From: a virus
Strand: one strand, 5' to 3'
Length of the DNA: 30,294 nucleotides
IMG/VR virus record: IMGVR_UViG_3300003410_000002
Location: 1 to 30,294 of that record
Made by a program: the position numbers and the translations under genes. The notes under the pieces are model-generated. The model was not told the origin of the DNA. It saw only the letters and a program-made list of their open reading frames with translations, and ran no database searches. Shown piece by piece: positions 1-30,294 of the stretch (its first letter is position 1; each line of letters opens with the position of its first letter).

Positions 1-75
1 GAGTAGCTTTAGCTATACTAGAATATATTAGAACTAATAAGAAAGATATTCTTAAGAAAGAGAAAGAACTAAATC
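1..75. repeat. 75-bp terminal direct repeat, left copy
   Basis: Bases 1-75 are identical to 30220-30294. A 55-codon gene reads without interruption from 30150 across the join to the stop at 96-98. This shows the contig closes on itself, giving a unit of about 30,219 bp. Whether the overlap is an assembly artefact of a circular or permuted genome, or a true short terminal redundancy, cannot be told from sequence alone. Confidence 0.95.
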
Positions 76-312: not shown

Positions 313-459
313 ATGTATCGAACGTATTACGAAATGATGACTAACGCGGAACTCTTAGAGGACGCAACTAACGAGAGCCTTTTAGATTACTATAGAAAGG
401 AATGTAAAGCGGTTTTATTATCTAGACTAGAATCTGAAAAAGAAATTATAGAGCTATGA
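313..459 (+). CDS. Small acidic helical protein, unknown function
   Basis: A 48-residue protein starting MYRTYYEMMTNAELLED and ending EIIEL. It looks fully helical, is rich in Glu and Leu, and has no recognised domain. Its start follows an A/T-rich leader (aaacaaataatt) typical of Bacteroidetes starts. Its TGA stop overlaps the ATG of the exonuclease gene (ATGA at 456-459), so it is probably the first gene of that operon and translationally coupled to it. Function unknown. Confidence 0.6.
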   Translation: MYRTYYEMMTNAELLEDATNESLLDYYRKECKAVLLSRLESEKEIIEL

Positions 460-1217
460 TAACCTTACTAAATAACGAGTCATACGGTAGAGACGAGATC
501 CTAGCTATGATGTACGACGACGAATTTTACTACGGCCACTTAGGTAAAAACGCTTTAAGTAGTAGCTCTTTAAAAACTTTACTTAAATCTCCTAAGACTT
601 ATAGGAACGTAATTAAATACGGTTCGGGGGATAGTCCCGCTCTTAGATTAGGTAAGTTACTTCATTGGATGGTATTAGAGCCGCATAAGATAGATAAGCT
701 TAATATAGTAGAAGCTAGTTCTAAGAATACTAAAATATATAAAGAGGCTTACGAAAAGGATAACGAAGTATTTCTAAGAAAAGAAATAAGCGATAGCGAA
801 AGATTATCGGACGCTTTACTAAGAAACGAAGAAGTATTAAGATTATTAAGTAAATCTGAGTTCGAAGTTCCCGAGATAGCGATGATAGACGGATTACCCT
901 TTAGAGCTAAAGCCGATATACTAAAGGACGATATGATAGTAGATATCAAGTCTACGGCCGATTTATCTACCTTTCGTTTTTCCGCTAATAAATACGGATA
1001 TGATTTACAAGCTTATCTTTATCTTAAGATATTCGGAAAGAAGAAATGTAAGTTTATAGTAGTAGATAAAGCTTCTACGGACGTAGGTATATTCGAGACT
1101 AGCGATGAGTTTATAAAATCGGGAAAGGCTAAATTTATACAAGCCGTATCGATATATAAATACTTCTTTAGAGAAGATAACGATATAGACCAATACGTTT
1201 TAAGAGGAATATTATGA
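456..1217 (+). CDS. RecE-like (exonuclease VIII) PD-(D/E)xK exonuclease
   Basis: A 253-residue protein of the phage exonuclease VIII / PDDEXK type, expected to resect double-stranded DNA for recombination or replication. Visible marks are the N-terminal S-S-S-S-L-K and A-L-R-L-G-K-L-L-H blocks (residues 36-70). The nuclease core follows: Asp154 in KADIL, Asp163-Ile-Lys165 in VDIKST, and Gln185 in DLQAYLY. This D...DxK...QxxxY order is usual for the family. Such exonucleases normally partner a single-strand annealing protein; none is evident next to it, though an SSB is coded at 26945. It overlaps both neighbours by 4 bases. The nuclease fold is clear; the exact role is inferred. Confidence 0.85.
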   Translation: MITLLNNESYGRDEILAMMYDDEFYYGHLGKNALSSSSLKTLLKSPKTYRNVIKYGSGDSPALRLGKLLHWMVLEPHKIDKLNIVEASSKNTKIYKEAYEKDNEVFLRKEISDSERLSDALLRNEEVLRLLSKSEFEVPEIAMIDGLPFRAKADILKDDMIVDIKSTADLSTFRFSANKYGYDLQAYLYLKIFGKKKCKFIVVDKASTDVGIFETSDEFIKSGKAKFIQAVSIYKYFFREDNDIDQYVLRGIL

Positions 1218-1867
1218 GTAAGTTTAGCTTCGATACCGTTAAGGATTTCGATAAGCATATAGATAAAAGTATACCTTCCTACTCTACTCTTTTAAATATA
1301 ATAGAAAATATATCTTCTTATTTTATAAGAGATTATTATAACGTATACGATCTAGGATGCTCTACGGGAACTCTTATTAAAAGACTTTACGCTAAAGATA
1401 AAACGAAGGCTAATTTTATAGGCTACGATATATCTAATAATCTTTTACCCGAGATAGAGGACGATAGAATATACTTTTATAATAGAGATATTACTAAGGA
1501 CGTTAATCTAAATAGAGCTTCTTTAATATTTTCTATATTTACTTTACAGTTTATAGATTATTATAAAAGAGAGAGAATACTTAAAAACGTATACGACTCT
1601 TTAATTAAAGGAGGAGCTTTTATAGTTACGGAAAAGATATTTTTAGAGGACGCGAGACTACAGGATATTTTTACTTTTTCTTTATACGATTATAAGATAA
1701 ATTCTTTTACGGCTTTAGAGATATTAGATAAGCAGAGAGACTTACGGAAGATTATGTTTCCTATTAGCGAGAAAGAAAACTTAGAATTATTTAGAAAAGT
1801 AGGATTTAAAACTATAGAACCTTTTTTTCAATCTCTAAATTTTAAAGGATGGATTCTTTTAAAGTAG
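1214..1867 (+). CDS. cmoA: CmoA-like carboxy-S-adenosyl-L-methionine (Cx-SAM) synthase
   Basis: A 217-residue class I SAM-fold protein that follows E. coli CmoA along nearly its whole length. Shared blocks are the N-terminal S-I-P-S-Y (CmoA SVPGY), VYDLGCS at residues 44-50, FTLQF at 109-113, GGA...TEK at 133-141, the LEI helix near 168-170, and a final FFQSLNF (CmoA WFQCFNF). CmoA converts SAM and prephenate to Cx-SAM; its only established use is by CmoB in tRNA wobble-uridine modification. No CmoB is present. Instead the gene overlaps the DNA cytosine transferase by 19 bases, so Cx-SAM supply to that enzyme is the likely role. One oddity: the Cx-SAM-binding Arg199 of E. coli CmoA aligns with Gln174, with Arg175 next to it. 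A plain methyltransferase remains the alternative. Confidence 0.85.
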   Translation: MSKFSFDTVKDFDKHIDKSIPSYSTLLNIIENISSYFIRDYYNVYDLGCSTGTLIKRLYAKDKTKANFIGYDISNNLLPEIEDDRIYFYNRDITKDVNLNRASLIFSIFTLQFIDYYKRERILKNVYDSLIKGGAFIVTEKIFLEDARLQDIFTFSLYDYKINSFTALEILDKQRDLRKIMFPISEKENLELFRKVGFKTIEPFFQSLNFKGWILLK

Positions 1868-2949
1868 AATATAAGCCTTTACTACTAGAGGAGGTAATAG
1901 CCGAATCTAATAAAAAACTATTTAACGTAGTATCTACTTTCGCGGGAGGAGGAGGTTCTTCTTTAGGCTATAGATTAGCGGGAGGTAATATATTAGCTAT
2001 TAACGAGTTCGTAGAAAGTGCTAGAGATACCTATAGATCTAACTGGCGAGAGACTAAGATATATCCTAGCGATATAAGAGAACTAAAAGGAAGTACTATC
2101 TTAAACGATCTAAACTTAAAAGAAGGAGAGTTAGATATATTAGATGGCTCCCCGCCTTGCGCCTCCTTTTCCCTTTCGGGTAATAGAGAAAAAGATTGGG
2201 GTAAAGAAAAGAAGTATAGCGATAAGACGCAAACGACCGACGATTTATTCTTCGAATACGCTAGACTAATAGACGAAATAAAACCTAAGACTTTTATAGC
2301 GGAAAACGTTAAAGGGCTACTTATAGGAAGTGCTAAGAATTTTTTCGGGAGTTCGCAGTTAGGCTTATTCGGAGGACATAGCGATACGATATACCATACC
2401 CTTACTAACCTAGGTTATAAAGTATATTATAAAGTTTTAAACGCTAAGAATTACGGAGTACCTCAGTCTAGGGAAAGATTAATTATAGTAGGAGTAAGAA
2501 ACGATATAGATATACCTTTTAAGTATCCTAAGGCTAACGATTATATATTTTCTTTACGAGAAGCTTTCGAGGGTTTAGAACATAGTAAAGAGGAATTAGA
2601 GGAGGTTAATATAGATAGGTTCGCTATATATAAAGAGGCTATTAAATTAGAAGAGGGGGGTCAGAGCGAAAAGTATTTTAACCTAATAAAGTCTAATAGT
2701 AAAAAGCCTTCGGGAACGCTAACGCAGACGGCGGGATCGGTAGGAGCAGCTTCGATAATACATTGGGATAATAGAAAGTTTACCGTAAAAGAAGCTAAAA
2801 GGATTATGTCTTTTCCCGACGATTATATCTTAAAGGGAACTTATAGAGAAAAAGTAGAAAGACTAGGGAGAGCCGTACCTCCTTTATTAATGAGCGCGGT
2901 AGCGAAACAAGTATATAATTTAATTTTAAAGAAATGGGAAAACAATTAA
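1849..2949 (+). CDS. C5-cytosine DNA transferase with Arg in motif X; candidate DNA carboxymethyltransferase
   Basis: A 366-residue C5-cytosine DNA transferase with motifs in order: I, FAGGGGSSLG (31-40); IV, GSPPCASFS with catalytic Cys104; VI, ENV (152-154); VIII, QSRER (206-210); IX, near FTVKEAKRIMSFPDDY (311-326). Between VIII and IX is a short target-recognition region of about 100 residues. Motif X normally reads G-N-[SA]-V; here it is L-G340-R341-A-V-P-P. From recall, the engineered Asn374-to-Lys form of M.MpeI, which I place at this position, accepts Cx-SAM and makes 5-carboxymethylcytosine. A natural Arg here, with a CmoA homologue directly upstream, strongly suggests transfer of a carboxymethyl group. 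The target site is unknown. Ordinary methylation is the alternative. The ATG lies inside the upstream gene. Confidence 0.9.
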   Translation: MDSFKVEYKPLLLEEVIAESNKKLFNVVSTFAGGGGSSLGYRLAGGNILAINEFVESARDTYRSNWRETKIYPSDIRELKGSTILNDLNLKEGELDILDGSPPCASFSLSGNREKDWGKEKKYSDKTQTTDDLFFEYARLIDEIKPKTFIAENVKGLLIGSAKNFFGSSQLGLFGGHSDTIYHTLTNLGYKVYYKVLNAKNYGVPQSRERLIIVGVRNDIDIPFKYPKANDYIFSLREAFEGLEHSKEELEEVNIDRFAIYKEAIKLEEGGQSEKYFNLIKSNSKKPSGTLTQTAGSVGAASIIHWDNRKFTVKEAKRIMSFPDDYILKGTYREKVERLGRAVPPLLMSAVAKQVYNLILKKWENN

Positions 2950-3470
2950 ATATCTACGGAAACGTAGAAGAAGGAAGTCTCTTAAGAGATAATATAGATA
3001 AAATAATATCTATACTAGAAAAGTATAAAATAGATAGCGTAGATAAACTAGAGAATATATTTAAAGGTCAAGAGGGAGAGAGAACCGTTAAAAAATATCT
3101 TAATAACGAGATAGGAAACTACGGAATGCAGATAGACGACTTTAGAATAAATAGAGAGGGAGGGTATCAGTTAAGCGAAATTAAAAGTCAATATAAGGTA
3201 AATAAAGGAGATTATTACTCCCCTATAGAGGGTCATGGGTTACACCCTGCGCAAGTAGAGGCTAGGGTAAGACTTTCCGAAAAGTACGGCTGGACCCCTA
3301 TGTTATATATAAACTGTCTAACCGATAAAGTTATATATTACGGAGATCTTAGAGAATTACTAAAAACGGAGACGCATACTTTTTCTAAGGGAGACTTTAG
3401 AAAAGAAAGAATACTTTTTAATATAAAATACTTTAATAAATCAGTACTTGGATCGGAATATTATAAATGA
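2934..3470 (+). CDS. PD-(D/E)xK nuclease, VRR-NUC / resolvase-like
   Basis: A 178-residue protein starting at ATG 2934, overlapping the DNA transferase gene by 16 bases. It has a restricted nuclease-like core: acidic residues near 47-50 (QEGER), Asp68-Asp69, then Glu82-Ile-Lys84 in YQLSEIKSQ, and a helix with Gln107 in HPAQVEARVRLSEKYGW followed by a strand TPMLYI. This E-x-K...P-x-Q layout resembles VRR-NUC and Holliday-junction-resolvase-like members of the superfamily. Tight coupling to the modification genes suggests it may act on unmodified host DNA or on replication intermediates, but this is inference. It could also be a structure-specific nuclease unrelated to modification. Confidence 0.6.
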   Translation: MGKQLNIYGNVEEGSLLRDNIDKIISILEKYKIDSVDKLENIFKGQEGERTVKKYLNNEIGNYGMQIDDFRINREGGYQLSEIKSQYKVNKGDYYSPIEGHGLHPAQVEARVRLSEKYGWTPMLYINCLTDKVIYYGDLRELLKTETHTFSKGDFRKERILFNIKYFNKSVLGSEYYK

Positions 3471-30153: not shown

Positions 30154-30294
30154 AGACTCCGATAGAAGAATTACTCGAATTAGAATCTAACTTAACTAAT
30201 ATGTTCGACTCAGACGTAAGAGTAGCTTTAGCTATACTAGAATATATTAGAACTAATAAGAAAGATATTCTTAAGAAAGAGAAAGAACTAAATC
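30150..30294 (+). CDS. 5' part of the junction-crossing small gene
   Basis: Starts at ATG 30150 (ATGA overlap with the MazG-like gene) and runs off the window end; its last codons are those at 3-98, giving 55 residues in total. It is annotated there in more detail. The open frame across the join is part of the evidence that the contig is circular. Confidence 0.7.
   Translation, partial: MKTPIEELLELESNLTNMFDSDVRVALAILEYIRTNKKDILKKEKELN
30220..30294. repeat. 75-bp terminal direct repeat, right copy
   Basis: Identical to bases 1-75; see the left copy. One copy should be removed when the genome is drawn as a circle. Confidence 0.95.

Follow-up and report, generated by a model that had tools for sequence, protein, structure and literature searches.

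The locus studied here raises the question of why a phage should carry its own homologue of CmoA, an enzyme whose classical role is exercised together with CmoB in tRNA wobble modification (cmo5U), directly in front of a gene for a cytosine C5 transferase of the DNA-modifying type. The window, by which we mean the whole stretch of DNA that was analysed (IMGVR_UViG_3300003410_000002, positions 1 to 30,294, numbered from its first letter), had been proposed to come from a phage that makes its own carboxy-SAM (Cx-SAM) and writes 5-carboxymethylcytosine into its DNA. This central idea is right, yet not new: the one article that a literature search turned up on natural 5-carboxymethylcytosine, which Yang et al. 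published on 7 December 2025 in Nat Commun, describes the formation of this base by CmoA and CmoX of Synechococcus phage S-B43 (PMC12783734). We consider it highly probable that the window carries a two-gene cassette for DNA modification that belongs to the published CmoA-CmoX type, with 5-carboxymethylcytosine as the predicted final base and a likely protective role. While the core system itself is known, the circular, complete genome free of CmoY, the swapping of the modification slot and the link to chorismate mutase are added here.

According to the proposed mechanism, CmoA would convert SAM and host prephenate into Cx-SAM, and CmoX would flip out cytosines in a short motif, attack C6 of the cytosine through Cys104 and move the carboxymethyl group onto C5, with Arg341 gripping the carboxylate and thereby selecting Cx-SAM over SAM. 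With no recognisable amide ligase (CmoY) in the complete genome, the final base would be 5-carboxymethylcytosine, and its likely role would be to shield the phage genome from restriction by the host and from further defences that target DNA.

The gene pair and its predicted clamp arginine

The CmoA homologue and the C5-cytosine transferase gene were found as originally predicted, both on the plus strand and overlapping by 19 bases at positions 1849-1867 (Table 1).

Table 1. Features of the window and of related loci (positions refer to the window unless a locus is named)
Feature	Position	Strand	Basis
Terminal direct repeat, exact 75 bases, left copy	1..75		identical to contig end
Exonuclease VIII (RecE)-like DUF3799 protein, upstream constant flank	456..1217	+	PF12684 E=1.9e-19; phrog_412
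cmoA homologue, predicted carboxy-SAM (Cx-SAM) synthase, 217 aa	1214..1867	+	TIGR00740, phrog_4752, PDB 4gek/4iwn/1im8
cmoX homologue, predicted DNA cytosine C5-carboxymethyltransferase, 366 aa	1849..2949	+	8YF3 match; inside Arg-type clade
Catalytic Cys104 codon (SPPC motif)	2158..2160	+	sequence; invariant in alignment A3
Arg341 codon, predicted carboxylate clamp	2869..2871	+	aligns with SpCmoX Arg350 and M.HhaI Asn304
PD-(D/E)XK nuclease, Hjc-type Holliday junction resolvase fold, downstream constant flank	2934..3470	+	invariant residues; model of relative
Terminal direct repeat, exact 75 bases, right copy	30220..30294		identical to contig start
Chorismate mutase, stand-alone or as a DAHP synthase fusion, by CmoA-CmoX	L018:3833-4819; L022:3287-4228; L024:632-1579; L106:118-1065; L185:5708-5971; L079:5615-5932

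The window CmoA matches PHROG 4752 (E=4.5e-55) and TIGR00740 (E=1.1e-34, 120 bits against an equivalog cut-off of 193), and its best solved structures are the CmoA proteins of E. coli and Haemophilus (4gek, E=3e-23; 4iwn; 1im8). The biochemically proven CmoA of S-B43 (SpCmoA) likewise falls under the cut-off with 116 bits, which indicates that this threshold leaves out the phage branch and does not define the activity; hence, we rejected it as a test of phage CmoA proteins. In E. coli CmoA, Arg199 binds the carboxylate of Cx-SAM (PMC3663124), and the column that aligns with this residue is not conserved in phage CmoA proteins, the window CmoA and SpCmoA among them. The window protein has arginines one and four positions beyond that column, the second of which is common to SpCmoA. 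Such neighbouring arginines could replace Arg199, and the phage branch may have moved its carboxylate-binding residue. The score under the cut-off and the unconserved Arg199 count against our explanation, and both are true of the proven SpCmoA as well.

The second protein has the C5 motifs and the catalytic Cys104 claimed for it (Pfam PF00145, DNA_methylase, E=6e-58). By far its best match among solved structures is 8YF3, the CmoX of S-B43 (SpCmoX; E=7.1e-72), to which it is about 40% identical, followed by M.HaeIII (E=9e-23). The arginine noticed in place of the motif X asparagine does occupy that position, since Arg341 aligns with Arg350 of SpCmoX and exactly with Asn304 of M.HhaI. In S-B43, CmoA makes Cx-SAM and CmoX carboxymethylates cytosine in GC motifs; wild-type SpCmoX accepts Cx-SAM as its sole cofactor, and Arg350 contacts the cofactor carboxylate in PDB 8YF3 (PMC12783734). 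The window shares with S-B43 the homologous and neighbouring cmoA and cmoX genes, the SPPC motif, the clamp arginine and the absence of CmoB, and by analogy with that pair, whose key residues are kept, it would be expected to form 5-carboxymethylcytosine from phage-made Cx-SAM. It differs in that the two genes overlap with no CmoY in between, and in that its genome is 30 kb long and probably that of a Bacteroidota phage, whereas S-B43 is a 214-kb cyanophage; the GC target is that of S-B43. A basic residue in place of the motif X asparagine also permits the use of Cx-SAM in the engineered M.MpeI N374K (PMC12783734), although that enzyme is a laboratory variant with a lysine and a CG target, whereas the window encodes a natural arginine enzyme next to a dedicated predicted Cx-SAM synthase.

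Yang et al. catalogued 5,615 CmoX candidates and 4,257 CmoA sequences on the same contigs (PMC12783734). The C5 enzymes fetched in our analysis, grouped at 80% identity, formed 95 Arg-type clusters and 21 others with Met, Leu or Asn at the clamp position. CmoA was present in the same fetched locus for 87 of the 95 Arg-type clusters and for none of the 21 others (Fisher p=7e-17, a value that is indicative only, as the clusters are related and the query is itself Arg-type). CmoA and motif X Arg enzymes hence occur together, and their pairing goes far beyond chance. Arg enzymes without CmoA, which had been named as evidence that would speak against it, are few: in one of the eight exceptions CmoA is cut by the contig start (L106), in another it lies elsewhere in the MAG (L123), and the remaining ones come from contigs of viral origin, or pieces of such, that measure 4.7-34.7 kb. 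The Arg enzymes form one assemblage in a maximum-likelihood tree, with the window CmoX inside it. In two members of this clade (L080 and L086) the clamp position is occupied by Leu and the vicinity lacks a CmoA, an apparent joint loss of the arginine and of CmoA.

C5 methyltransferases with Met for the motif X Asn (GMSVPP) occur in L087:2932-4008, L088:2926-3990, L090:3073-4032 and at least 15 mostly Bacteroidota loci, and form a separate clade without a nearby CmoA.

A complete genome without CmoY

The identical 75-base ends of the window, together with an ORF that spans their join, indicate that the record is circular and complete at about 30,219 bp, and in relatives with about 97% DNA identity the end and the start of the window are adjacent on one contig. 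No asparagine-synthetase-type ligase (PF00733, the type of CmoY) was found in this complete genome or in its relatives of 30-46 kb (G001-G004), nor was a CmoY-like gene detected by phmmer. The predicted final base is thus 5-carboxymethylcytosine itself, unless a later enzyme went unrecognised. In S-B43, CmoY adds glycine, and the virion contains only the glycyl product (PMC12783734). The window seems to hold a minimal, two-gene form of this only lately reported modification within a complete genome of small size, and DNA whose end product is 5-carboxymethylcytosine might be obtained from it in a simple way.

The terminase of the window is closest to those of Flavobacterium phages (50% identity), which makes a member of the Bacteroidota, probably a flavobacterium, the likely host. 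None of 151 Flavobacteriaceae genomes has a CmoA at the TIGR00740 cut-off; 10 have a match at E<1e-15, and 141 have none at that threshold. A flavobacterial host would accordingly be expected not to supply Cx-SAM, which would explain why the phage brings its own CmoA.

The modification slot and competing explanations

In sister phages, the place of CmoA-CmoX is taken by other modification genes, with the exonuclease-VIII-like gene kept upstream. An N6/N4-type methylase of 291-293 aa (Pfam PF01555) lies in this slot in L095-L102, and a Mom-family protein (PF25680, E=3e-66) in L103; these are enzymes and chemistries of tailed phages that are unrelated to CmoA-CmoX and share only the genome slot with it. 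L095 and the CmoA-CmoX phage L016 have 94-99% DNA identity in aligned blocks of both flanks; their similarity ends where the exonuclease gene ends and returns where the nuclease gene starts. Such an exchange supports DNA modification as the job of the cassette, and, as it takes place between near-identical phages, it offers a natural comparison of the protection that each modification affords.

The slot exchange also argues against reading CmoA-CmoX and the downstream nuclease as a restriction-modification system, to which we give very little credence even though cmoX and the PD-(D/E)XK nuclease gene overlap and stand in this order in close relatives too. Sister phages that lack CmoA-CmoX also encode this nuclease, 98% identical to the protein of a CmoX phage, and it had no match to defence families or to named phages. 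Its residues E49, D69 and E82-x-K84 are invariant (alignment A2). While the structure model of the window protein is poor (pLDDT 54), that of the relative in L015, which lacks an insertion, reached a pLDDT of 83 and had archaeal Hjc as its best PDB matches (E=1e-5). We therefore rejected the nuclease as a restriction enzyme, and it probably takes no part in the chemistry of modification. Similarly improbable, if slightly less so, is an ordinary SAM-dependent 5-methylcytosine transferase with CmoA as an incidental neighbour: the fold and motifs are indeed those of C5 methyltransferases, but the enzyme has Arg at the position of Asn304, is closest to the Cx-SAM-only SpCmoX and belongs to the type that so consistently accompanies CmoA.

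The least probable explanation is that the phage CmoA serves cmo5U formation in host tRNA and that its link to the DNA enzyme is due to chance. The classical partnership of CmoA with CmoB would favour it, and CmoA is the source of Cx-SAM here as in the E. coli pathway, but the predicted acceptor in the window is DNA cytosine and the transferase is of the C5-DNA type. The absence of CmoB claimed by the original prediction was borne out by a PF08003 search of the genome, which was positive in an E. coli control. In addition, cmoA overlaps cmoX in an operon, the window has no tRNA genes, and the CmoA-CmoX pair recurs in unrelated phages. A more serious, though still unlikely, alternative is that the carboxymethyl group is a mere intermediate which an unrecognised enzyme of phage or host modifies further, as CmoY does in S-B43. 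The purely glycyl DNA of the S-B43 virion (PMC12783734) and the many window genes without known function are in its favour; against it stands the lack of any recognisable CmoY-type ligase in the window genome and its relatives. Against our main explanation as a whole are to be set the CmoX identity of about 40%, the avoidance of CCGG and of GGCC/CATG, and a host assignment drawn from terminase similarity.

This avoidance is strong in the window, where CCGG occurs at one site against about 69 expected. The CmoX-bearing relatives G001-G003 avoid GGCC and CATG instead, and GGCC is avoided in a sister phage without CmoX too; hence, we rejected site avoidance as a guide to the target motif of CmoX. 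The pattern suggests that the modification leaves the window phage and its relatives under some restriction pressure. Among the dinucleotides of the window, CA/TG is strongly depleted (0.36) and CG over-represented (1.47), and the codons GTG, CTG, TTG and TCA are nearly unused; the same skew is milder in a sister phage without CmoX.

A possible prephenate supply in relatives

Prephenate is the co-substrate of CmoA, and several relatives of the window pair come with a gene for chorismate mutase, the enzyme that forms prephenate. A fusion of DAHP synthase and chorismate mutase lies between CmoA and CmoX in four loci (L018, L022, L024 and L106), and stand-alone ORFs of chorismate mutase type, each above the Pfam cut-off, adjoin CmoX in L185, L079 and Verrucomicrobia loci (L130-L144, L163). 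The chorismate mutase of L196 is a weaker case, as the ORF that encodes it overlaps with CmoA. Eight of the 95 Arg-type clusters have a chorismate mutase, compared with none of the 21 others, and the stand-alone protein has matches in only 1 of 50,697 named phage records. The window itself has no chorismate mutase gene. A faecal phage record with a DAHP synthase-chorismate mutase (MT837090) was set aside, as neither CmoA nor CmoX is present on its 11.6 kb.

From this gene clustering, we suggest that the chorismate mutase may be a dedicated prephenate supply for CmoA in these relatives. The link bears on the origin of prephenate, a question left open by the discoverers of the system, and the main text of their article makes no reference to chorismate mutase (PMC12783734). 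Overall, we lean somewhat towards a picture in which CmoA-CmoX is, in the lineage of the window phage, a complete, exchangeable cassette that occupies a fixed slot and yields bare 5-carboxymethylcytosine, with a prephenate supply of its own in several other lineages.

Several Verrucomicrobia MAGs (L130-L144, L170-L171) were also seen to carry at least three CmoX loci each, and in many of these loci CmoX forms an uninterrupted series with CmoA and chorismate mutase.
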